This document shows, piece by piece, positions 2,600 through 26,606 of a stretch of DNA of 34,199 bases. The stretch is from Coriobacteriia bacterium (GTDB lineage Bacteria > Actinomycetota > Coriobacteriia > Coriobacteriales > Eggerthellaceae), in contig JAUNIP010000016.1 of assembly GCA_030523425.1 (NCBI GenBank), positions 1 through 34,199 on the forward strand, in the 5' to 3' direction. Numbering within the stretch: the first letter of the stretch is position 1; every line of letters begins with the position of its first letter. The notes under the pieces are model-generated. The model saw only the letters and a program-made list of their open reading frames with translations, did no database searches and was not told the origin of the DNA. A program made the position numbers and the translations under genes.

Positions 2600-3631
2600 C
2601 TAGCGGACGGCGTTCTTTAGTTGGCCGCAGGCGCCTTCTATGTCGGAGCCTCGGGAGGTGCGTAGGGTGGCTTCTGTGTGGTTGGCTTCCAGCGCGGCAA
2701 GCCAGCGTTCAACGGTTTTGTGAGCCGCAGGCTGGTAGGGTGAACCTTCAACAGCGTTCACGGGCAGCAGGTTCACGTGGCACAGCAGGCCGTCGCAGAA
2801 CTGCTGCAGCGCACGCAGATCTTCGTCCCCATCGTTCACGCCCTTGATCAGCAAGTACTCGAATGTCACGCGGCGGTCAGTCTTTTCCAGGTAGTCAAAC
2901 AACGCACTACGCAGCTGCGAAAGGGGATAGGCCTGCATCTTGGGCATCAGCACATCACGCTTTTCCTGCAGGGCCGAATGCAGCGAAACTGCCAGCGTGT
3001 ACTGGTAGGGCTCTTCCGCAAAACGCGCTATGCCGGGAATAACGCCGCAGGTTGAAACCGTTATACGCCGTGCGCCGATGCCCACCAGCTGCTTGTGGTT
3101 CAGTACGTGCAAGGCGTCAATTGTGTTCTGGTAGTTCAAAAACGGCTCGCCTTGGCCCATGGCCACCACGTTGCTCACCCGCATGCCCATGTCTTCTTGG
3201 GCAACTAAAATCTGGTCCACCATTTCGCCCATGCCCAAGTTGCGCGTGAAGCCTTCGTGCCCGGTGGCGCAAAACGCGCACGCCATGGCGCAGCCCACTT
3301 GGGTGCTGAAGCACACCGTCAGGCGGTCCTTGCCTTTCGAAGAGGGGATGGCCACCGTTTCCACCAGGTTCCCATCGTGCAGCTGCAGCAAGTACTTGCG
3401 CGTGCCGTCCTTGGATACGCGCTTGTTCGCCACCACGGGCTCATCCAGCGAAAACGCATTTTCAAGCGAAGCGCGAAACGCCTTGGACAGGTTGGTCATC
3501 TGGTCAAACGACGCAGCTCGCTTCGCATACACCCATTCCAGCAGTTGCTGCGTGCGGAAAGGTTTTTCACCTGCGGAAGACACAAAGTCTTGCAGTTGGC
3601 CCAGGTTGTATGTCTTGAAAGAACAGGTCAT
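2600..3631 (-). CDS. rlmN: Dual-specificity 23S rRNA/tRNA m2A methyltransferase RlmN
   Basis: A radical-SAM enzyme that methylates C2 of A2503 in 23S rRNA and A37 in a subset of tRNAs. The 343-residue protein from ATG 3631 has the normal family length. The radical-SAM cluster motif CxxxCxxC is Cys114, Cys118 and Cys121 (CAMACAFC), and the acceptor cysteine is Cys335 in the C-terminal motif SRGSDIEGACGQL. The segment GQGEPFLNYQN is the expected GGEP-type SAM-binding loop. A longer open frame to 3670 exists, but the start at 3631 fits the family N-terminus and the promoter position. It is convergent with parB and divergent from ddl. Confidence 0.96.
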   Translation of the reverse strand: MTCSFKTYNLGQLQDFVSSAGEKPFRTQQLLEWVYAKRAASFDQMTNLSKAFRASLENAFSLDEPVVANKRVSKDGTRKYLLQLHDGNLVETVAIPSSKGKDRLTVCFSTQVGCAMACAFCATGHEGFTRNLGMGEMVDQILVAQEDMGMRVSNVVAMGQGEPFLNYQNTIDALHVLNHKQLVGIGARRITVSTCGVIPGIARFAEEPYQYTLAVSLHSALQEKRDVLMPKMQAYPLSQLRSALFDYLEKTDRRVTFEYLLIKGVNDGDEDLRALQQFCDGLLCHVNLLPVNAVEGSPYQPAAHKTVERWLAALEANHTEATLRTSRGSDIEGACGQLKNAVR

Positions 3632-3637
3632 GGGACC

Positions 3638-3643
3638 ATTATA
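3638..3643 (-). promoter_or_regulatory. -10 element of rlmN, probable leaderless transcript
   Basis: On the minus strand a perfect TATAAT (3643 to 3638) is followed by six bases (GGTCCC) and then the rlmN ATG. A start 7 bases past the -10 would fall on the A of ATG, so the mRNA would have no leader and no ribosome site. No convincing -35 is visible. Leaderless mRNAs of this layout are common in Actinobacteria; their use here is inference. Confidence 0.55.
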
Positions 3644-3677
3644 CGCAATGGTTTGTACCAGCGAACGCATACGGCTT

Positions 3678-3686
3678 TGCTATACT
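3678..3686 (+). promoter_or_regulatory. Extended -10 promoter of ddl
   Basis: TGC immediately before TATACT (3681-3686) forms an extended -10 element, with no good -35. Transcription would start near 3693, about 30 bases before the ddl start. It lies back-to-back with the rlmN promoter. Confidence 0.55.
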
Positions 3687-3722
3687 GCTACCGTCCGAAA
3701 TTTCTGCGGGGAAGGAAATCCT

Positions 3723-4679
3723 ATGGCTGAAACGTTTGACCCGAAGTCTTGCAAAGTGGCGCTGCTGGCCGGCGGCCGAAGCGGCGAACGCGAAATATCC
3801 ATCACGTCGGGCAAGGGTTCGCGCCAAGCCTTGGAGGAAGCGGGCTTCCCAGTGACCACGCTTGACCCCGCCAAGAAGGAAGACCTGGTGGAACTGATCA
3901 ACGGCGACTACGACGTGGCCTTCCTGTGCACGCACGGCCGCTACGGTGAAGATGGCGTGCTGCAGGGCATGCTGGAGCTTATAGACCTTCCATACACGGG
4001 GTCTGGCGTGTGGGCCAGCGCTGTGGCCATGGACAAAAGCAAGGCGAAGCTGTTCTACCAGCGCGCTGGCGTGGACACCCCGGCTTCGGTGACGCTGCGC
4101 AAAGGCGAACCGCTCGACGCCGCCGCAATCGTGGAGCAGCTGGGCGAACACAGCGTGGTGAAGGCCGCCTGCGAAGGATCCACCTTGGGCATTTACGTGG
4201 TCACGCAGGGCAGCGCCTTGGAAGACGCCATCAACCAAGCATTCGAATTCGACAACACCGTGGTGGTGGAGCAGTTCGTGGAAGGAAATGAATACACCGT
4301 GGCCGTGCTGGGCAACGAAGACGCCCAGGCGCTTCCCGTCATCAACATTGTGCCTGCGAAGGGCTTCTACGACTTTGAAGCGAAATACGCGCCCGGCGGG
4401 TCGGAGCACATCTGCCCCGCGCCCATTTCCGAAGAGCTCACAGCCACGCTGCAGCAAAACGCGGTGCGCGCACATAAGGCCCTGGAATGCACGGGCGTTT
4501 CCCGCACGGATTTCATAGTGGACGCCAACGGCAAGGCGTGGGCGCTTGAAACCAACACGCTGCCAGGCATGACGGGCACATCGTTGCTGCCCGACGCCGC
4601 GCGCGTTGCCGGCATGTCGTTCCCGCAGCTGTGCACGAAGATGGTGCAGGACGCCTTAGCGGCGCACCCGCGGGCCTAA
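3723..4679 (+). CDS. ddl: D-alanine--D-alanine ligase
   Basis: An ATP-grasp ligase that joins two D-alanines for peptidoglycan precursors in the cytoplasm. The start ATG 3723 follows a clear ribosome site (GGGGAAGGAAA); the frame is open further upstream but that part is antisense to rlmN. The product is 318 residues, in the normal range. Visible family features are the N-terminal GGRSGEREISITSG loop (about 17-30), the EGSTLGI segment of the ATP-grasp fold, and the C-terminal metal/substrate motif ETNTLPGMTGTSLLP. It is a single gene with its own promoter, and its stop overlaps the tail of the convergent gene on the minus strand by four bases. Confidence 0.95.
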   Translation: MAETFDPKSCKVALLAGGRSGEREISITSGKGSRQALEEAGFPVTTLDPAKKEDLVELINGDYDVAFLCTHGRYGEDGVLQGMLELIDLPYTGSGVWASAVAMDKSKAKLFYQRAGVDTPASVTLRKGEPLDAAAIVEQLGEHSVVKAACEGSTLGIYVVTQGSALEDAINQAFEFDNTVVVEQFVEGNEYTVAVLGNEDAQALPVINIVPAKGFYDFEAKYAPGGSEHICPAPISEELTATLQQNAVRAHKALECTGVSRTDFIVDANGKAWALETNTLPGMTGTSLLPDAARVAGMSFPQLCTKMVQDALAAHPRA

Positions 4680-5395: not shown

Positions 5396-8300
5396 ATGAA
5401 AGACCCCAAAGGCAGCAGTGTGGAAAAGAAACAAAAAGGCATACCAGAATCCCTGCGGATGTTCATAACCGACGGCACGCCGGACTTCGTGTGTGCCCGT
5501 TACGCTTCGCTGAAGGCCGCCGCCCAGGCGGGCCACTACGGCGTGTTCGACGAAAACGTGGTGGTGCTAGACACCGAAACCACTGGCCTTTCCTTCGCGC
5601 ACGACGAACTGATCCAGATTGCCGCCGCACGCATGGTGAACGGCGAAATTACGGAGTGGTACACCACGTTCGTGAATCCGGGCAAGCCCATTCCGGAAGA
5701 CATCACGCACCTGACCGGCATCACGGACGCCCACGTGGAAGGCGCGCCATGCCCCGATGCCGCCCTGCAGGGCCTGGCGAACTTCGTGGGCGACGCGTAC
5801 GTGGTGGCGCATAACGTGGGGTTTGACCACAACTTCGTGACCAAGCACCCCGGCGGGTACCCGCTGCTGGAAAACACTTGGGTGGATTCGCTGGACCTGG
5901 CGCGTATTGCGCTGCCGCGGCTGACGTCGCACCGGCTGCTGGATTTGGTGCGCGCCTTCGACGCCCCGCTTTCCACGCACCGGGCCGACGCCGACGTTGA
6001 AGCAACGTGTGCCATGTTCCGCATACTGTTGGCCGCGGTAGACGCCATGCCTGCCGCGCTGGTTTCCAAGATTGCGGCCCTTGCGCCGCGCGAAGAATGG
6101 CCCACCGGCGTGGTGTTCGACTATTTCGCCCAGCGCAAGCAACAGGAAGGCGCCGCGGCGCCCGAAGTGGGCGGCGAACCCGAAGTCGGCACCAGCCCCG
6201 CGACCGTCCCCGCCCCCGCGGACAGTTCCCCCGCCCCCGCAACCAACGTGGACGCACTGTTTTCCCTGCGCAGCCTGCGCCGACAAGCGGTGAAGGACGC
6301 GCGGTCCAAACCCAAGGAAGACGCCGACGAATTGGCCGCCGACCCCGCGCGCGGCATAAGCGCGCCCGACGAAGCCATGGTGGCCGCCGCCTTCAACAAG
6401 GGCGGCCTGGTGGGCCGGCTGTATCCCCGCTTCGAAAAGCGCCAGGAACAAGCAGACATGGCCGTGGCCGTGACCAGGGCTTTTGCCGCCAGCGAAAACT
6501 TGGTGGTGGAAGCGGGCACCGGTGTGGGGAAGTCCATGGCCTACCTTTTGCCCGCGGCGCTGCTGGCCAAGCGCAACAACATAACGGTGGGCATTGCCAC
6601 CAAGACAAACGCCCTGCTAGACCAGCTGATGTATCACGAATTGCCCGCGCTGGCAGAAGGCTTAGGCGGCCTGACCTATGCCAGCCTGAAGGGCTTTTCC
6701 CACTACCCGTGCCTGCTGAAGGTGGACCGCCTGGTGGCGGAAGGCGCCAAAATGCGGGAAGTGGCCGGCAAGGAAGTGTCCCAGGCGCCGGCACTGGCGG
6801 GCCTGCTTTCGTTCATAGAGCAAACCGTCTACGACGACATAGACACCCTGAAAATTGACTACCGCAGCGTGCCGCGGTGGCTGTTCACCACCACCAGCCA
6901 CGACTGCCTGCGCCGAAAGTGCCCGTACTTCGGCACCAGCTGCTTTGTGCACGGCGCGCGCCGGCAGGCTGAAAGCGCCGACATTGTGGTAACGAACCAC
7001 ACGCTGATGTTTTGCGACCTGAAGGCTGACGGCGGCCTGCTTCCCACCGCGCGCCATTGGGTGATAGACGAAGCCCACGGCGCCGAAACCGAGGCGCGCC
7101 GTGCGTTTTCCCTGACACTGGCTGCCGAAGACATCCTGCGTGTGGCCAACCGCCTGCGCACAACGGAACCCGCGCGCAATCCCTTTGTGCGTGCCGAACG
7201 CGTGGTTGCCGGCAGCTGCGGCGAAGAGGCGCAAACGCTGCTGTATGCCTTGACGGCTAAGGCGAAGGCAGCGGGGGAGTCATTCGCGGAAACCGGCCTG
7301 GACTTCGTGAAGCACATGAAGGACCTGCTGTACTTTGACCAGGCAAAACGCGGCAAAGGCTACGAAATCTTCGAGCTGTGGATCAACGACCAGGTGCGCA
7401 ATAGCGCCACGTTTAGCACGTTGGCGGGCAAGGGCCGCAACCTGTGCGAAGCCTTAGACAAGCTGATTCGCGCCGCGCAGGACGTGGTGGCCTACCTGGA
7501 AGACTTCGACGAGGCGTCCAACGTGCAGCGCGACATAGCGTCGCTGACCATGAACTGCAAGGACCTGCTTTCCGCCGCGGAGGTGGTGCTAGGCCCCGCG
7601 CGGGACGAGTTCGCGTATTCGGCCACCCTGAACCGCAAGAAGGACAAGGTGGGGGAGCGGCTGGAAGCGTTGCTGGTGAACGTGAGCAGCGAACTGGACG
7701 AGCGGCTGTACCAGCGCACCCATTCGATCATCTTCGCTTCGGCCACGTTGACGGTGAACAACGCGTTTTCCGCGTTTGAGCAGGCCTTGGGGCTGAACGC
7801 GTCCGAACATGCAAGGGCGCGCACGCTAAAGCTTGATTCCAGCTACAACTTCGACAAGAACATGACGGTCTACATCCCCAGCGACCTGCCCGAACCCAAC
7901 GACTTGGCGTACCTGCCGGCGCTGCAGCACTTCCTGCGCGTGGTGCACGTGGCCCAAGGCGGGTCCATGCTGACGCTGTTCACAAACCGAAAGGAAATGG
8001 AAAGCTGCTTTGACCAGGTGAATCCCGCCCTAAAGGAAGCAGGCCTGCGCTTGGTGTGCCAAAAGTGGGGCGTTTCCGTGAAGGGCCTGCGGGACGACTT
8101 CCTGAAAGACGAAAGCCTTTCGCTGTTCGCGCTGAAAAGCTTTTGGGAAGGCTTCGACGCGCCTGGAAGCACGCTGCGGGGCGTCATCATCCCCAAGCTG
8201 CCCTTCGCCAAGCCTTCCGACCCGCTTTCCTGCGAACGCGCCACCCGCGACGACAACGCCTGGCGCCACTACGTGCTGCCCGCCGCGGTCATTGAGACCA

Positions 8301-8485
8301 AGCAGGCAGCAGGGCGCCTGATCCGCACCGAACACGACACCGGCGTGCTCATCTTGGCTGACCGTCGCCTGCTGACGAAAAGCTACGGCAAGGCGTTCAT
8401 CAATTCCATGCCCAGCAAAAACGTGAAGGTGCTGACCTGCGCCGAAATTGCCCAAGACATAGCAAACGGCAGGCGGAGCGACTGA
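5396..8485 (+). CDS. dinG: DinG-family helicase with N-terminal DEDDh exonuclease domain and FeS cysteines
   Basis: A 1029-residue two-domain protein. Residues about 54-210 are a DnaQ/PolC-epsilon-type 3'-5' exonuclease with the full DEDDh set: Asp59, Glu61 (DTETTG), Asp144 (GFDHNF), His195 and Asp200. A Pro/Ala-rich linker (about 245-290) follows. The XPD/DinG superfamily-2 helicase begins near 335: Q-motif-like EKRQEQADMA, Walker A GTGVGKS (374-380), DEAH (558-561). Four cysteines, Cys439, Cys504, Cys509 and Cys516, have the spacing of the 4Fe-4S domain in E. coli DinG and XPD. The C-terminal part has SATL, the DSSYNF segment and the QAAGRLIR motif VI. It is expected to unwind 5'-tailed or forked DNA, with nuclease activity possible. 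It heads a likely three-gene unit; its TGA overlaps the next ATG by one base. Confidence 0.92.
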   Translation: MKDPKGSSVEKKQKGIPESLRMFITDGTPDFVCARYASLKAAAQAGHYGVFDENVVVLDTETTGLSFAHDELIQIAAARMVNGEITEWYTTFVNPGKPIPEDITHLTGITDAHVEGAPCPDAALQGLANFVGDAYVVAHNVGFDHNFVTKHPGGYPLLENTWVDSLDLARIALPRLTSHRLLDLVRAFDAPLSTHRADADVEATCAMFRILLAAVDAMPAALVSKIAALAPREEWPTGVVFDYFAQRKQQEGAAAPEVGGEPEVGTSPATVPAPADSSPAPATNVDALFSLRSLRRQAVKDARSKPKEDADELAADPARGISAPDEAMVAAAFNKGGLVGRLYPRFEKRQEQADMAVAVTRAFAASENLVVEAGTGVGKSMAYLLPAALLAKRNNITVGIATKTNALLDQLMYHELPALAEGLGGLTYASLKGFSHYPCLLKVDRLVAEGAKMREVAGKEVSQAPALAGLLSFIEQTVYDDIDTLKIDYRSVPRWLFTTTSHDCLRRKCPYFGTSCFVHGARRQAESADIVVTNHTLMFCDLKADGGLLPTARHWVIDEAHGAETEARRAFSLTLAAEDILRVANRLRTTEPARNPFVRAERVVAGSCGEEAQTLLYALTAKAKAAGESFAETGLDFVKHMKDLLYFDQAKRGKGYEIFELWINDQVRNSATFSTLAGKGRNLCEALDKLIRAAQDVVAYLEDFDEASNVQRDIASLTMNCKDLLSAAEVVLGPARDEFAYSATLNRKKDKVGERLEALLVNVSSELDERLYQRTHSIIFASATLTVNNAFSAFEQALGLNASEHARARTLKLDSSYNFDKNMTVYIPSDLPEPNDLAYLPALQHFLRVVHVAQGGSMLTLFTNRKEMESCFDQVNPALKEAGLRLVCQKWGVSVKGLRDDFLKDESLSLFALKSFWEGFDAPGSTLRGVIIPKLPFAKPSDPLSCERATRDDNAWRHYVLPAAVIETKQAAGRLIRTEHDTGVLILADRRLLTKSYGKAFINSMPSKNVKVLTCAEIAQDIANGRRSD

Positions 8486-9909
8486 TGGCGCTGTTCGGCA
8501 AAAAAGGCAGCCTGTCGAAGGGCGCCCACATCAAGCGCGGCACGCAGGGGTCCTCCAACGAAGTTTCCTTGAGCGTGCTTGACGCCGCGCGTGATGTGTT
8601 AGACGCCGAACAAGGCGAAGCCCCTCGTCAGAAGCTAGGCGAAATCAGCCTGTTCACCCTAGACGGCAACGAATCCAGCAACATAGCGGTTTCCAGCAGC
8701 GCCGTTTCGGGCCTGAGCCTCCAAGAAGGCGAATCTTCCGGCACCGGCCTTTCGCAGCCTGCCGCCGCGCCTACTGCCGCCGCGCCAGCTGCGCCGGCCG
8801 AGGACGCCCGCGCGCGCAAGCAGGCAGCAAAGCAGGCCAAGCGCGAAGCGAAGGCCCAGGCCGCGCAGCTGCGGGCCCAAGCCGAAGCTGCAAGCTTGGG
8901 CCGCCACGCCAAGCCCCGCACCGAAAAAAGCATTGCGAGCATGCCCCAGCAGGGCATGGAACAGCGCGTGGTGCAGAAAAAGGCACGCCGCCGGGTTCAG
9001 CGTGCGGCACTGATAGGTGGCTTGGTGCTGGTGGTGGCAATCGCGTGCGCCGTGGCGGGGTATTTCCTGCACCAAAACAGCCTTGAACAGCAAAAACACG
9101 TGGCCGTGTTAGACCAGGCGCTGGCCCAAATAGAAGCAGCGGACGAAACGTTGGTACAGCTGAGCAACGTGTTGGCCATGCCCAACGAAGAAGGCGCCGT
9201 TGAAACCCTGCAAAGCCTGCAGACCAGCCTTCCGCAGACCAAGCTGACGCTGCAGCGCGCCCAGTCGCTGCTGCAACAAGGCGCCGCGGGCCTGCAAAAC
9301 GAAGTGGACAAGGAAGCCGCCGTGCAGGCCGGCAAGGCCATAGAGGCGCGGCAGGGCATGTGCGACAGCGGGTTGGTGCTGGTGGGCGCCCTGCTGACGG
9401 AAAAGCAAGAAGCGGCCACGGTCAACGCGGCCTGGGAGGACCTGCTGAAAGCCGACGCGCAAGCCCGCGAAAACGCCACGCTGCTGCTTGACCCCACCGA
9501 AGAAAACCTGAACAAGGCAACCGAAGGCATAACCGAGGTCATTTCGGCCTTCCAGCAGGTGCAATACGTAATGACCACGCTAAACCAAACGGCCACCTAT
9601 GCAGACATGGCCCCGTATCTTTCTTACTTGGACGCGCGCCTGACGGCCCTTGACCACGCAAAAGCCGCCATAGAGGCCCTGAAGGTGGAAGACCTGGACG
9701 TGGCCCGCGCCGAACAAGACGCCTATTCCAAGGCAGACGCCGAAGCCACCGATTGGGCCTTGAAGCTGCCCAGCAATCCTTCTGCGCCCATAGAGGAGGC
9801 CTATACCGTGGATGTGGCCCCCACGGTGGAAACCTACACCCAGCAGCGCAACGCCGCTGGCAGTGCCGACGATACCTTGCGCAGTTACTACAGTTCTGCT
9901 GCAAAATAG
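8485..9909 (+). CDS. Membrane-anchored helical protein of unknown function
   Basis: A 474-residue protein, not recognised. Its ATG shares one base with the dinG stop, so translation is coupled. Residues 1-90 are mixed and contain two short repeats of the form SLSVLD/SLFTLD. Residues 90-140 are Ala/Pro and then Ala/Lys/Arg/Gln-rich and likely helical. A basic stretch (KKARRRVQR, 165-173) precedes a single transmembrane helix (about 174-195), giving an N-in topology. Residues 200-470 are outside and almost entirely helical, with regular Ala/Leu/Gln/Glu patterning suggesting a long bundle or coiled coil. No enzyme motif is visible. The following gene is also a membrane protein with long low-complexity segments, so the two may act together. 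Confidence 0.85.
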   Translation: MALFGKKGSLSKGAHIKRGTQGSSNEVSLSVLDAARDVLDAEQGEAPRQKLGEISLFTLDGNESSNIAVSSSAVSGLSLQEGESSGTGLSQPAAAPTAAAPAAPAEDARARKQAAKQAKREAKAQAAQLRAQAEAASLGRHAKPRTEKSIASMPQQGMEQRVVQKKARRRVQRAALIGGLVLVVAIACAVAGYFLHQNSLEQQKHVAVLDQALAQIEAADETLVQLSNVLAMPNEEGAVETLQSLQTSLPQTKLTLQRAQSLLQQGAAGLQNEVDKEAAVQAGKAIEARQGMCDSGLVLVGALLTEKQEAATVNAAWEDLLKADAQARENATLLLDPTEENLNKATEGITEVISAFQQVQYVMTTLNQTATYADMAPYLSYLDARLTALDHAKAAIEALKVEDLDVARAEQDAYSKADAEATDWALKLPSNPSAPIEEAYTVDVAPTVETYTQQRNAAGSADDTLRSYYSSAAK

Positions 9910-9985: not shown

Positions 9986-12900
9986 ATGCCGAACATGATT
10001 GATCACGTAACGTATCTGGCGCAAGAAATAGGGCCGCGACCTGCGGGAACAGAAGAAGAGCAGCAAGCGGCGCTGTACATACAGGAAAGCTTCCAGAAAC
10101 AAACCCAGCTTCCTGCCGAAATTGAAGAATTCGACGGTGCAACGGGCAACTGCACCACGCCGTTGGTGTGGGCCGCGCTTTCCTTGGTGGGCGCGCTGCT
10201 GTTCATGATCACGTCCGCATTGGCCATCCCCGGGCTTATCTTGGCCTTGTTGGGTGCCGTGCTGTTTGTGTGCGAATTCCTGGACAAGCCGCTGATTTCA
10301 CGTTTCTTGCGCAGGGGCATAAGCCAAAACGTGATTGCGAAGTACAAGCCGGAAGTAGAAACGGCCGACGTGCGCGGCCGCAAGCGCAAGATTGTGGTGG
10401 TGGCGCGCTACGACAGCGGCAAGGTTCGCCCGGAACTGAAGCCCGCCCTTCTGAAGGGTCTGGGCATTGCCGGGCGCGTGTCCGGCTGGGCCACCGTGTT
10501 TTTGTTTGTGTGGCTGGTCATCCGCGCTATTTTCGCGCTGAACCCCGAAGGCGGCGCGGCCATCTTCTTCAACGTGGTCACCATTGTGGCCATGCTGTGC
10601 GTGGCCTTGCCGCTGGTGCTGAAGCTGCTGTCCCAGACGGCCGCCTACAACGACGGCGCTAATTCCAGCGCCGCTGGCCCCGCCGTGATGCTGGAAGTTG
10701 CCCAGCGCGTGGCGGAAAGCGCGTTCTATGTTCCCGAATTCGACGAAAGCCAGCAGCCTGTGGTGCACGGCGAACAGGAAGCCTACGACCAGGGGCTGGT
10801 GCCGGAAGGTGCCCAGCTTGCCTACCAGGTTGCGCCCACGTCGGACGCCGCGACCGAGGCGGCGCCGGAAGCCGCCCCGGCTACGATTTCGCGAGCACTC
10901 AGCGCTGCTGAAACGGCCACGTTCAAGCCAGTAGACGTTGAGCCGGCCGCTGTGCCTGCCGCGGGGGAGGGCGCTGCCGAAGCGCCCACGTCCAACGTGG
11001 TGGCTGTGGCTTCGGCTTTAGGTGCGGCTTCCATGACCGCTGCCGCTGCTGCGGCCCCTGCCCCGGCTGCTCCCGCGTATGACGCCCCCGCTGCGTCCGC
11101 GGAAGACGACGTTCCTTCTTGGTTCAAGTCTGCCCAGGCCAAGGCCAAAAAGACCGGCGATGATTCAAACATCCAGCGTTCCCGCTACGCCGACGCGTTA
11201 GAAGCGGGCTTGCAGCGCCAAGCCGAAGCGCAGGCTGCCGCCGAAGCTGCCGCGCAAGCCGCCGCCCAGGCCGAAGCCGCTGCCCAGGCTGCCGCGGCCG
11301 CCGAAGAGCAGGCCGCTGCCCAGGCTGCCGCCGAAGCTGCCGCGGCCGCCGAAGCTGCTGCCCAGGCTGCACCCGCACAAGCCCAGCCCGACGCCCAGTC
11401 TGTTAGCGAAATGCCGCAAGGGCACGTGGCGGAAGGGGAAGACATTCTTTCTTCGGTGCTCATCGAAAGCGTGGGCGACATTCCCACGGCTCCCGAAGTC
11501 AAGCTGCCCGCCTTCTTGAGCGGCGAAATGCGGCAGCTGCGCGACGGCGACCGCGTGACCGTAAGCGCGTACGCCGAAGAACAAGACGACCAGCCTTCCG
11601 AAGCGGTGGACGACTTCATCGACTTCGAAGAGCAAGATGCTGCGCCTAAGCCCACTCGTGCGCCGGTGGTACTGCCGGACGTGTTCGCAACCAACCTGGC
11701 GCCGCTTGAGGAAATGAAGCAGCAGCGGGCTCCCTTGGCGGACGCCGCCGCGGCATCTGATGGCAAGGTGGCGGCAAAGGGCCTGTTGAACATGCTGCCC
11801 ACCATCGGCGCAGAAGAAGGCGAGGCTGCGGGTGAAACCGCGGACAGGCCTTCGCTGGTGCTGCCTTCGCTTTCCGGCGCCATGCCCAGCGTTTCTGCTG
11901 GCGGGTCGGGTTCTGCCGGCATGACGGGGTCGTTTGCCCCGGTGGCAGAAACGTTGGTGGTTGAGGCTGAACAGGAAGAAGAGGACCTGTTCATCGACGA
12001 CGCCGACGATTCCGCTTTTGAAGAGAACTTCACGGAATCGGGTGCTTATGCCGGCCCGGATTACGTGGACATGCCGCGTTCCCGCTTCGGCGGCTTCTTT
12101 GGTCGCTTCCGCAAGAAGAAGACCCCCGACTACGTGGCGCCCGTTGCCCCCGCACCACAGGACTTCGTGCAGGTGAGCGAACAGGACTTCGCGGAGTCGG
12201 CGGACAGCTGGGGCGATGGCGGCTGGGATGCCGGTGCCACCACGGCTTTCGACAATTCTGCCATCCGCACCGAAGGGCTGCGCGAAGAAGACTTTGATGA
12301 TTACGACTACCAAGACCACTTCAGCGAGCAAGAAGACGATGGCTTTGACGATTACGCGCCGCGCCGGTGGGAAGGCGGTGCCTTCTCCAACATGAAGGAC
12401 CGGCTGCCGTTTGGCAAGAAAGACGAAGCGCAGGACCCGCAGGAATACGATGACCAGGGCGTTTACGACCCACAGTACGACGACCAAGCATACGCGGACG
12501 GCGACTACGCCGACCCCTACCAGCAAGACGCCTACTACGACGACCAGCCGTATGAGCAGCCGGACGACCAGTTTGTGCCCGAGCTCGAGCCCGAGCCCGA
12601 AAGCCGTGGACGTAGGTCCCGCCGTTCTGACGGGTCCGGTGAAAGCGCCGGCGGTCGTACGCGCAGGCCGTACCGCAGCGAATTCGCAGGCCTGGGCTTA
12701 AACCTTTCGGCTGAAGCCTTTGCCGACGACCAGCAGGCGGTTGCCCAGTTCCAAAACCCCGCCATCCAAAAGGAAGTGTGGTTTGTGGCCTTGGGGTCTG
12801 ACCTGGACGGCAATGCCGGCATGAAGGCCTTCATAGACGCGCATCACGACGAGCTGCGCGGCGCCATCATCATAGAGCTTGACAGCGTGGGGTCCGGCCG

Positions 12901-13201
12901 CCTTTCGCTGGTGTCGCCCGAAGGGTCGCTGAAGGCCGTGCAGTCGTCTTCGCGCATGAAGCGCTTTGTGCGCAAGGCTTCCCAGGTGCTAGGCATCAGT
13001 GTTCCCACCGTGGCTATGACCTGGAACGACAGCGCCACGTCCTACGCCAACGCCCACGGCTGCCAAGCCATGCACGTTGCAGGCATGGAAGGCGCAAAGC
13101 CGGCGCTGTTCGGTGAAGCCGCCGACGTGGCCGAAAACGTAGACCAGCGCACCCTAGAAGAAGCCAGCGACTTCATAATGGAGCTGCTTCGCTCTATTTA
13201 A
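9986..13201 (+). CDS. Large membrane protein with degenerate M28-peptidase-like frame and giant low-complexity insert
   Basis: A 1071-residue protein. ATG 9986 follows GAAAGG; the longer open frame overlaps the upstream gene and has no ribosome site. The N-terminus (HVTYLAQEIGPRPAGTEEE, 7-25) matches the start of M28 aminopeptidases. Four hydrophobic helices lie at about 60-78, 81-99, 167-185 and 191-214. VVVARYDSG (138-145) and NDGANSSAAG (222-231) sit where M28 enzymes have HYDS and DDNASG. The frame resumes at about 930 (VWFVALGSDLDGNAG, IIIELDSVGSG, TWNDSATSYA, final helix). Usual metal ligands are altered: His to Arg in HYDS, His to Ser in SDH, and no His before AADVAENVD. Between about 245 and 925 is a disordered Ala-rich, then Asp/Glu/Tyr-rich insert, including an Ala/Gln/Glu block at about 405-470. 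Likely a non-catalytic membrane scaffold; function unknown. Confidence 0.8.
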   Translation: MPNMIDHVTYLAQEIGPRPAGTEEEQQAALYIQESFQKQTQLPAEIEEFDGATGNCTTPLVWAALSLVGALLFMITSALAIPGLILALLGAVLFVCEFLDKPLISRFLRRGISQNVIAKYKPEVETADVRGRKRKIVVVARYDSGKVRPELKPALLKGLGIAGRVSGWATVFLFVWLVIRAIFALNPEGGAAIFFNVVTIVAMLCVALPLVLKLLSQTAAYNDGANSSAAGPAVMLEVAQRVAESAFYVPEFDESQQPVVHGEQEAYDQGLVPEGAQLAYQVAPTSDAATEAAPEAAPATISRALSAAETATFKPVDVEPAAVPAAGEGAAEAPTSNVVAVASALGAASMTAAAAAAPAPAAPAYDAPAASAEDDVPSWFKSAQAKAKKTGDDSNIQRSRYADALEAGLQRQAEAQAAAEAAAQAAAQAEAAAQAAAAAEEQAAAQAAAEAAAAAEAAAQAAPAQAQPDAQSVSEMPQGHVAEGEDILSSVLIESVGDIPTAPEVKLPAFLSGEMRQLRDGDRVTVSAYAEEQDDQPSEAVDDFIDFEEQDAAPKPTRAPVVLPDVFATNLAPLEEMKQQRAPLADAAAASDGKVAAKGLLNMLPTIGAEEGEAAGETADRPSLVLPSLSGAMPSVSAGGSGSAGMTGSFAPVAETLVVEAEQEEEDLFIDDADDSAFEENFTESGAYAGPDYVDMPRSRFGGFFGRFRKKKTPDYVAPVAPAPQDFVQVSEQDFAESADSWGDGGWDAGATTAFDNSAIRTEGLREEDFDDYDYQDHFSEQEDDGFDDYAPRRWEGGAFSNMKDRLPFGKKDEAQDPQEYDDQGVYDPQYDDQAYADGDYADPYQQDAYYDDQPYEQPDDQFVPELEPEPESRGRRSRRSDGSGESAGGRTRRPYRSEFAGLGLNLSAEAFADDQQAVAQFQNPAIQKEVWFVALGSDLDGNAGMKAFIDAHHDELRGAIIIELDSVGSGRLSLVSPEGSLKAVQSSSRMKRFVRKASQVLGISVPTVAMTWNDSATSYANAHGCQAMHVAGMEGAKPALFGEAADVAENVDQRTLEEASDFIMELLRSI
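11200..11400 (+). repeat. Alanine-rich degenerate triplet repeat inside the M28-like gene
   Basis: About 200 bases consist of reiterated GCC/GCT-GAA-CAG codons, encoding AEAQAAAEAAAQAAAQAEAA-type sequence over about 65 residues. Units such as GCTGCCGCCGAAGCTGC recur several times, so slippage or recombination could change the length. The protein segment is expected to form a long Ala-rich helix. Confidence 0.75.
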
Positions 13202-13251: not shown

Positions 13252-13289
13252 AAAAGACGACAAGTGACCCGGGCTCTTGTCGTCTTTTT
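13252..13289 (+). terminator. Intrinsic terminator after the M28-like gene
   Basis: AAAAGACGACAAG (13252-13264) pairs perfectly with CTTGTCGTCTTTT (13276-13288) around an 11-base loop, and the right arm ends in a run of five T. It separates the dinG block from the tRNA genes. Confidence 0.9.
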
Positions 13290-13297
13290 CACGCCCC

Positions 13298-21181: not shown

Positions 21182-22009
21182 GTGGGCTCTGCCAGCAAGA
21201 ACATACGCAACACGGTGATCGCCGCAGTTTCAGCTGCAGCGGTTGTGGTTGCCATTGCTGCGGCCACCGTTGTTGCCCCCACCTTCGCCGTGGCCGACCG
21301 GTCAAGCGGCGAAGCCACCACCTTCGGCATAGGCAAGTCCACGGCTTCCCTTACCGCTTCGGTGGCAAACATTTCCGAAACCGACGCCACCGCCGCGTAC
21401 AGTGAAGCCCCCTTGGCCGTGACGGACACAGCTGAAACCAGCGTGTTGGCCACCTCTGTGAACTACGACGTGATGGTGGGCGTGAACAAGGTGGAAGAAC
21501 GCCGCGAAGCCGAACGCCGCGCCGCTGAAGAGGCCGAACGTCGTGCCCAGCAGGAAAAGATTGACCAAGCAGCCGCCAACGAAGCCGCATGGCGCGCCAT
21601 GGGCGACGGCGCCGTGAATGCCGTTGGCAGCGTGGATTTCAGCGTGGGCAAGGAAGCCTTCATTGCCGAATGGGGCGCCCGCATTGATGCGTACCTGTCC
21701 CACAGCGTGTTGGCTGGCTACGGCGAAACGTTCGCCGCCGCCGCCTGGGAATACGGCGTGGACCCGCGTTGGTCGCCCGCCATTTCCAACACCGAAAGCG
21801 GCAACGGCTTCAACTGCTTCTTGCCGCACAACGCCTGGGGTTGGGGCAGTTCCAGCTGGAGCAGCTGGTCGGAAGCCATCAACGCGCATGTGGCCGGCCT
21901 GGCTTCCGCGTACGGCTACTCCATCACGTATGCGTTCGCGGCAAAATACTGCCCGCCGAACACCCAACACTGGTATAACAACACCATCAGCCAAATGCAG
22001 CTGATTTAA
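21182..22009 (+). CDS. Secreted lysozyme-like cell-wall protein
   Basis: A 275-residue exported protein starting at GTG 21182 after AAAGGGA. A signal peptide (hydrophobic core about 12-32, cleavage probably near AFAVA-D around 36-39) is followed by a Ser/Thr/Ala-rich stretch and a charged coiled coil (about 103-130, VEERREAERRAAEEAERRAQQ). Residues about 155-275 look like a lysozyme/transglycosylase-fold domain: WEYGVDPRWSPAISNTESGNG with likely catalytic Glu205, then HNAWGWGSSSWSSWSEAI and the YGYSITYAFAAKYCPP end. Cys212 and Cys257 may form a disulfide. It should act on peptidoglycan outside the cell; catalysis is inferred. Two TrkA genes follow after 24 bases. Confidence 0.82.
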   Translation: MGSASKNIRNTVIAAVSAAAVVVAIAAATVVAPTFAVADRSSGEATTFGIGKSTASLTASVANISETDATAAYSEAPLAVTDTAETSVLATSVNYDVMVGVNKVEERREAERRAAEEAERRAQQEKIDQAAANEAAWRAMGDGAVNAVGSVDFSVGKEAFIAEWGARIDAYLSHSVLAGYGETFAAAAWEYGVDPRWSPAISNTESGNGFNCFLPHNAWGWGSSSWSSWSEAINAHVAGLASAYGYSITYAFAAKYCPPNTQHWYNNTISQMQLI

Positions 22010-25157: not shown

Positions 25158-26606
25158 CTACAGCGGGGCATATACGCGGACGGCGCATAGTTGCTCTTCG
25201 GCTTGGTTAATCAGGCTGCGGGTTATGTTGGCGAACGTCACCATTATGTCTTGTTCGCCGGTGGTGGCCAAGAAGTCGCCGTAGTCGGCCGAGCCGGTCA
25301 GCACGTCGGTGGCGAAGTAGGTGCTGCTGGAAAAGTCGATGCCGCACACGGCCTGGGTGGACTTCACCACCAGGTAGTCACCGCACCAGCACGGTGCGCA
25401 CGCCGGCGTGCGGCTGAAGCGGAACCAAGGCACGTAGTTGTAGTCGGCGCCGGTGGCCCGTTGCAGCGGCACGTAGGTGCCCAGGTTGGCAATGCCGTCG
25501 CCGTAGTCGTAAATGCCATCGAAGCAGAACGTGAAGCCGGTCTTGCCGTAGCCCGCTTCCAGGGGCTTCATGGCTTGGGGCAGCACCATGGTGTCCACCA
25601 CGCTGCCCGAAGCGGCGTCCACATACGTAAGCTGGTAGTGCACAGCGGACGTGGGCGTGCGCGGCGTGATGACCACTCCGTGCAAGGTGGGGTTCGGCGG
25701 CGTGGCCATGCGGCCGGGCGAAGAATACACCACGTCCACGTTGGTGGTGCCCACCACGGCCTTCTTCAGCACGGAATCGCTGGCGGCGGCGTTGCCGTTG
25801 GAACGTGGCATCACTTGCCAAAACGCCTTGTTGCCCACCAAGGCCAACGTGGGCGTTTCCCAATCGGCATTGCCGGAGTCCACGCGCACGTATTCCACCG
25901 GGTCGCCGTCGGAATCCAAGCGGGCGGTGTAAACGCGCCACACGCCTTCCAAAATGTCGGCTTCGGTCCAAACTACGCCGTCAGACGTGGCGCGCACGTC
26001 GTAAATCTCGAAGCCTTCGTCTTGGCCCACGGCCTGCCCCACAATGGTCTTGGTGCCGCCGTTTCCCAGGTACAGAAGCTGCACCTGTGTCAGCGGCTTG
26101 GCGGCTTCGCCGGGCACCAGGCAGGCGGCCACGTCGGGGTCGTTGCACCACACCAGCGTGCCGTAGGGCATCTCGAAGTCGCCCACCAGCCCGAAATGCG
26201 CGCTCAGTTCCACTTCGGAAAGCTCTTCGGAAGTGGTGACCGCCGAAGTGGGCACCGAAAGGATGGTCAGGTCGGCGGTGTCGTCGTGGCCCAACAGGCC
26301 TAACGCCCCGGCCGCCGTGGTGCCGGCAGCAATAACGCCCACGCCTATGGCCCCGTACAGCAAGTGCCGGCGCGACACCACCAGCTGCGAATTGGGGATG
26401 GTGAACACGCCTTTGTCCAGCGAACTGGGCGCTTCGGCGCGCAGCGTGGGCGAAACCTGCTGCACGGTGCGCACCGTGGGCCGCACGCTGGGGCCCGCTT
26501 GCGGCGTACCGCCCGCACCCCGCGCATGGCGCGCGGCCCGCGGCTGCCCGCCTGCGGCGCGCTGCGGCTGCCCGTTGGAGCTGGTATGTTTCTTCCGTGG
26601 TGTCAT
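25158..26606 (-). CDS. Exported unknown protein with Tat-like signal
   Basis: I do not recognise this 482-residue protein. Residues 1-65 are Arg/Ala/Gly/Pro-rich and cytoplasmic. SRRHLLYGA (about 78-86) followed by a hydrophobic stretch (GAIGVGVIAAGTTAAGALGLLG) resembles a twin-arginine (Tat) signal set unusually deep in the protein; it may serve as an uncleaved anchor. The rest is beta-rich with repeats of the type LVGNKAFWQVMP, VVWTEADILEGVWRVYTA and LAVR-like strands, suggesting a beta-propeller; six cysteines occur, four of them near the C-terminus. It is convergent with purB and divergent from the two-component operon, sharing a short promoter region with it. Confidence 0.85.
   Translation of the reverse strand: MTPRKKHTSSNGQPQRAAGGQPRAARHARGAGGTPQAGPSVRPTVRTVQQVSPTLRAEAPSSLDKGVFTIPNSQLVVSRRHLLYGAIGVGVIAAGTTAAGALGLLGHDDTADLTILSVPTSAVTTSEELSEVELSAHFGLVGDFEMPYGTLVWCNDPDVAACLVPGEAAKPLTQVQLLYLGNGGTKTIVGQAVGQDEGFEIYDVRATSDGVVWTEADILEGVWRVYTARLDSDGDPVEYVRVDSGNADWETPTLALVGNKAFWQVMPRSNGNAAASDSVLKKAVVGTTNVDVVYSSPGRMATPPNPTLHGVVITPRTPTSAVHYQLTYVDAASGSVVDTMVLPQAMKPLEAGYGKTGFTFCFDGIYDYGDGIANLGTYVPLQRATGADYNYVPWFRFSRTPACAPCWCGDYLVVKSTQAVCGIDFSSSTYFATDVLTGSADYGDFLATTGEQDIMVTFANITRSLINQAEEQLCAVRVYAPL

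Follow-up and report, generated by a model that had tools for sequence, protein, structure and literature searches.

The stretch of DNA analysed here (34,199 nucleotides, hereafter the window) carries, in this order, genes for ParA, ParB, RlmN (on the other strand), a D-Ala-D-Ala ligase, a DinG-type helicase, a membrane protein termed the partner here and a membrane protein with a degenerate M28 peptidase fold (pseudo-M28), followed by a terminator-like hairpin and two tRNAs. Judging from the ParA and ParB genes (230-2507), the window is close to a chromosome partition locus, and the origin may be nearby as well. The features relevant to the pseudo-M28 gene are given below; BSAP denotes YwaD, the zinc aminopeptidase of Bacillus subtilis.

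5396..8485, + strand, DinG-type exonuclease/helicase, head of an apparent operon (Pfam RNase_T and Helicase_C_2; syntenic in relatives)
8485..9909, + strand, upstream partner from a class-wide family: single-pass membrane protein with a disordered N-terminal part, one transmembrane helix and a helical outer domain
9986..13201, + strand, coding sequence of the pseudo-M28 membrane protein, 1071 aa (open frame, Pfam match, homologues, AF2)
9986..10135, + strand, M28 N-terminal segment, residues 1-50, EIGPRPAGTEEE helix leading to the EIEEF strand (profile match to BSAP 50-97; AF2 mostly >90)
10154..10279, + strand, predicted transmembrane hairpin 1 (residues 57-98), occupying the site of the PA-domain insertion in BSAP (AF2 helices 57-75 and 77-98; gap in the BSAP alignment)
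10301..10423, + strand, M28 strands NVIAKY and VVVARYDSG, the ligand His being Arg141 and the Asp of HxD kept as Asp143; basic, presumably cytosolic segment
10442..10636, + strand, predicted transmembrane hairpin 2, residues 153-217, between the first and second metal-ligand positions (AF2 helices 153-183 and 190-217)
10637..10726, + strand, M28 GAN(D)NASG loop and helix, the bridging Asp being Ser227 (profile, ligand table)
10727..12706, + strand, residues 248-907, disordered insert that begins Ala-rich and continues acidic and Tyr-rich, with a predicted long helix at 400-455 (pLDDT, composition)
12161..12235, + strand, eroded copy of the motif WLGVDxxFDARxxGxxIGSWDNF, DFVQVSEQDFAESADSWGDGGWDAG, residues 726-750 (recognised by eye against relatives; below profile detection)
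12368..12382, + strand, WEGGA, what is left of the conserved W.GGA element in the insert (alignment)
12707..13198, + strand, M28 C-terminal half, residues 908-1071 (Pfam stretch 921-1066, C-half profile, structural alignment)
13256..13290, + strand, probable intrinsic terminator GACGACAAG..CTTGTCGTCTTTTT, downstream of the coding sequence (read directly from the sequence)

The last of these is missing from the consensus scan for terminators, which permits loops of 3-8 only, its own loop being too long. The frame of the pseudo-M28 gene is intact from the ATG at 9986 to the stop ending at 13201. This start was preferred over a longer frame from 9812 because the homologues begin at 9986, where the ATG is preceded by AAAGG.

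An earlier reading, made from the sequence only, had recognised landmarks of M28 aminopeptidases at the two ends of the protein, and the profile searches agree with it. Pfam Peptidase_M28 scored 22.3 bits on the 1071-aa protein against a cut-off of 21.3 and also matched 35/35 family members from the same order. A profile of 35 N-terminal halves aligned with BSAP in three collinear pieces (E 1.2e-13), and the breaks between these pieces are the positions of the two transmembrane hairpins. The C-half profile also matched M28 aminopeptidases, although more weakly (best E 0.0013), so that M28 similarity is present in each half. In an AF2 model calculated from a 35-row alignment, 325 residues reach a pLDDT of at least 90; they are located in the M28 elements and in four long helices, and the pLDDT falls below 50 across most of residues 282-907. 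Aligned with BSAP (6hc6) by VIA-align, the model gave Z 32.8 over 281 residues with an rmsd of 3.7 and with both halves covered (rank 2: 251 residues, rmsd 2.1). According to this model, the protein is a single M28 aminopeptidase fold with breaks in three loops, where the two transmembrane hairpins and the disordered insert are placed. The split of one fold by an insert, as the sequence-only reading had it, is conserved throughout the order; the large insert has the composition described there (Ala-rich, then acidic and Tyr-rich) and a length of about 660 aa instead of ~680. The libraries searched gave no functional annotation for the gene beyond its M28 similarity, and a PDB search with the single sequence returned low-complexity matches to the insert only. 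A match to MmpL3 (NCBIfam) over the insert and the transmembrane part reached 25.5 bits, the cut-off being 1400, and was rejected as an effect of composition.

The four long, confident hydrophobic helices form two hairpins in all members of the family, which predicts integration into the membrane. Membrane helices near the N-terminus had been noticed before; four are indeed present, not as a separate N-terminal module but as hairpins inside the M28 fold. Between the hairpins, 15 of 54 residues are lysine or arginine, whereas the two outer loops have neither. A similar positive bias, with RRGERxRR beside the hairpins, is seen in homologues of deep-branching Coriobacteriia that have intact sites. 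Based on this charge distribution and the positive-inside rule, we infer that the M28 domain and the insert are cytosolic. An outward M28 domain, serving as a receptor or an adhesin-like platform on the cell surface, would be in keeping with M28 proteins at large, most of which, like transferrin receptor and nicalin, work outside the cell or in a lumen. However, no signal peptide is apparent in the 1071-aa protein, and the strong positive-inside bias to the M28 side, found likewise in the intact deep homologues, makes this orientation highly improbable. With the M28 domain in the cytosol, the cleft probably faces the membrane, because both hairpins sit on the active-site side of the fold, and the insert would emerge at the other end of the sheet and project into the cytosol.

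The metal site of the window protein is largely lost. The general base of M28 enzymes is a glutamate, which we take to be Glu131 in Streptomyces griseus numbering; the window protein has Asp939 at this position. The metal ligands in the same numbering are His85, Asp97, Glu132, Asp160 and His247 (PMC7522609). At the corresponding positions, the window protein carries Arg141 (His), Ser227 (bridging Asp), Leu940 (metal Glu), Asp966 and Gly1043 (last His), so that Asp966 is the one residue kept among six metal and catalytic positions. The replacement of the metal-site histidines (by Arg141 and Gly1043) had been anticipated and is accompanied by the further losses at Ser227 and Leu940. The histidine previously assigned as the last ligand (SDHxxF) was nevertheless at the wrong position; the metal-binding His of M28 belongs to [YW]H..D, the YHTPED segment of BSAP, which the C-half profile aligns to the Gly1043 column.

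These losses bear on whether the protein is still an enzyme, in which Asp966, Asp939 and Asp143 would support single-metal or metal-free chemistry, for example of a cyclase- or transferase-like kind on membrane peptides. One-zinc cyclases occur among the M28 relatives, as does GPAA1, a subunit whose M28 ligands are altered and which has been proposed as a peptide synthetase (PMC7522609). Asp143 of HxD is invariant across the order, many Eggerthellaceae keep the catalytic Glu, and certain order members, which keep up to 5/6 site residues, may have single-metal or different chemistry. Yet the published one-zinc set (Asp, Glu and His, as in glutaminyl cyclase and GPAA1) is lost from the window protein (Ser227, Leu940, Gly1043), and no single ligand position is conserved across the whole order. 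We therefore regard altered chemistry as quite unlikely.

The C-half profile found the gene in single copy in 240/248 Coriobacteriia genomes and in 220/221 of the good ones. It is thus near-universal in a class to which many human gut bacteria belong, and Eggerthella, Gordonibacter, Adlercreutzia and Slackia are among the genera that carry it. These relatives place the genome of the window within Eggerthellaceae or near that family. Relatives in other classes of the phylum are compact (385-450 aa); they have the same two hairpins with four helices and about ten linker residues at the insert point in place of a large insert. Complete ligand sets, for which Asp and Glu were treated as interchangeable at the second and fourth acidic positions, were counted in 10/20 compact relatives, in 16/23 deep-branching Coriobacteriia and in 0/37 members of the order of the window. 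The proposal of a non-catalytic M28 fold is therefore supported for the order, all 37 members of which lack a complete site. It does not extend to the family as a whole, because intact sites, at the same positions, occur in the deep and compact sets. The insert also differs in length, with 112-391 aa in deep members and 333-1281 aa in the order. A model of one intact deep homologue (L189) has the same split fold with its own insert disordered (Z 33.9 to BSAP). The order forms one clade in the tree with 100/100 support; degenerate compact relatives join its side, possibly by long-branch attraction, and no number of site losses is claimed. Some of the sister-class genomes (L211-L230) match the membrane-M28 profile as many as four or five times, with intact and degenerate copies side by side, and site loss may have been repeated there.

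Active-looking close relatives in deep Coriobacteriia suggest another role, in which the dead M28 core regulates proteolysis, capturing substrates or pairing with an active peptidase, rather than serving as a general scaffold. The iRhoms are pseudoproteases that regulate proteolysis in such a manner, and a substrate cleft could outlast the loss of the metal. We consider this role unlikely, since the class has one copy per genome and therefore no active paralogue to pair with. The same is true of the window's own genome, in which the sole match was the 1071-aa protein itself.

The insert of Coriobacteriia is located in the loop from the GANDNASG helix to the strand before the catalytic Glu, and its composition was compared in 60 homologues. 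Across the class it consists, in order, of a basic stretch (GLFGR.KRK), the motif WLGVDxxFDARxxGxxIGSWDNF, an acidic run and W.GGA; the Eggerthellaceae version of the motif is EWLDVDxxFDARxxGxxRGGWESF. None of the 12 genomes searched has more than one copy of the motif, which is confined to the pseudo-M28 protein and absent from the searched sister-class genomes with compact relatives. Other proteins, searched for the motif as a clue to a binding partner, contained none above chance. The window protein retains just a faint remnant of the motif, besides WEGGA, which implies that the Ala-rich and Tyr-rich parts are not the conserved element. For the same reason, recruitment based on this motif cannot be general.

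The lost ligands, the eroded motif and the low-complexity Ala-rich repeats present in the insert would also be expected of a functionless, decaying gene with an insert free to expand. This explanation is scarcely credible in view of the open frame and the single copy in nearly all genomes of the class. Moreover, in comparisons of related species and genera, the M28 and transmembrane parts had a dN/dS of 0.03-0.36, with the minima (0.03 and 0.09) in close pairs whose dS is unsaturated, and even the insert had about 0.10-0.53. The fold is thus under selection in an order that has no complete site, and Glu979 and Arg990, which are invariant in the order and in the deep set alike, indicate that constraint persists away from the metal site. 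Low dN/dS together with invariant off-site residues points to a maintained pseudoenzyme rather than a decaying gene.

The stop of the DinG-type helicase gene overlaps the start of the partner gene. The partner was found upstream of the pseudo-M28 gene and on the same strand in 34/34 neighbourhoods in which it was detected, at distances from directly adjacent to about 5 kb. It was undetected in 26/60 neighbourhoods, some of which are incomplete, and several partner-negative genomes had no convincing copy elsewhere either; we therefore regard the partner as likely but not obligatory. In Eggerthellaceae, it has a disordered N-terminal tail with the conserved sequence AHIKxxTxGTSNEISFSVLDAA. No Pfam family corresponds to the partner family, for which only scattered weak matches in one or two members were obtained. 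Many weak genome matches to the family are low-complexity stretches. The pseudo-M28 gene is apparently operonic with this class-wide gene for a single-pass membrane protein.

BSAP (6hc6, MEROPS M28) resembles the window protein in its fold and in having an insertion in the first loop. Unlike the window protein, it is soluble, has an intact two-zinc site and a PA domain in place of the transmembrane hairpin, and lacks both the second hairpin and the disordered insert. Transferrin receptor 1 (M28B; 6okd, 7zqs; Z about 27) is similar in its non-catalytic M28 fold, membrane anchor and binding function, but it is eukaryotic and single-pass with an outside domain, and it has no giant disordered split. 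Nicalin, another M28-like membrane protein, is part of the BOS complex of the multipass translocon (7tm3, 9c7u, 6w6l) and was matched to the window model by Foldseek. It is a eukaryotic ER protein with a lumenal M28 domain, and its likeness to the window protein is one of role only. Nicalin acts within the membrane complex of the multipass translocon (PMC9630114). The bacterial M28-like protein CA_C2195 (DUF4910, Clostridium acetobutylicum, 3k9t), also among the fold matches to the window model, lacks the conventional M28 active-site residues (PMC4000134); it differs in being soluble, with one bound zinc, a winged-helix domain and a sugar-gene context. MEROPS lists more than 550 non-peptidase homologues of M28, with transferrin receptor as a known case (PMC4000134). 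ERMP1 and the fungal vacuolar membrane proteases likewise combine M28 with several transmembrane helices. Their helices are not known to interrupt the catalytic domain, which is on the lumenal side, in contrast to the hairpins inside the fold and the presumably cytosol-facing M28 domain of the window protein.

A new architecture had been suggested for the window protein. Eukaryotes are already known to have membrane proteins with a non-catalytic M28 domain, and the novelty is confined to the presumably cytosol-facing bacterial form, of which we found no record, with two transmembrane hairpins and a giant disordered insert within the fold. In the literature searched, which was mostly open-access, we found no description of the pseudo-M28 family, the decay series or bacterial membrane M28 pseudoenzymes; the family, the series and the insert motif are thus apparently undescribed. 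The probable present role of the window protein, holding other proteins at the inner membrane face, is one that within the M28 fold is known mainly from eukaryotic relatives.

We consider it reasonably probable that a membrane peptidase was turned into a cytosol-facing pseudoenzyme scaffold or adaptor, with linked roles for the core, the insert and the partner gene. This reading is based on the loss of chemistry with retention of the fold, the growth of a disordered segment of the client-binding type, the membrane anchoring and the gene partner. It builds on the computed fold, split, site loss, lineage pattern and maintained selection; binding, recruitment and any signal, like topology and operon, are inferred. 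The family probably descends from a compact, zinc-dependent peptidase of some 390 aa; its cytosolic M28 domain would have been held to the membrane by two hairpins at the rim of the active site. Coriobacteriia may then have acquired a disordered segment between the GANDNASG helix and the strand toward the catalytic Glu, and in the order of the window the zinc site would have been lost while the insert grew. The dead M28 core could bind peptide ends or a membrane partner and the long insert recruit cytosolic clients, while the neighbouring single-pass protein may couple pseudo-M28 to the outer side of the membrane. More tentatively, a non-catalytic hub with up to about 1280 disordered residues might organise a membrane process together with the class-wide single-pass partner. 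If true, this would be a class-defining membrane hub of Coriobacteriia, converted from a zinc peptidase, the cytosolic cleft of which faced the membrane, in an order with common human gut bacteria. The graded series within one phylum, from a compact enzyme over an enzyme with a short insert to a dead enzyme with a giant insert, allows the conversion of an enzyme to a scaffold to be followed stepwise. Automated annotation of the gene would probably say peptidase, and this would be an error for the order of the window.

Two further observations were made elsewhere in the window. The long open reading frames at 21182-22009 (+) and 25158-26606 (-) have no Pfam match, and the latter, with other frames opposite to it, could be spurious. 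The D-Ala-D-Ala ligase frame (3159-4679) is unusually long with 506 aa; the matches to its N domain fall into two stretches, of which one is at 248-282, and its C domain starts at about residue 300.
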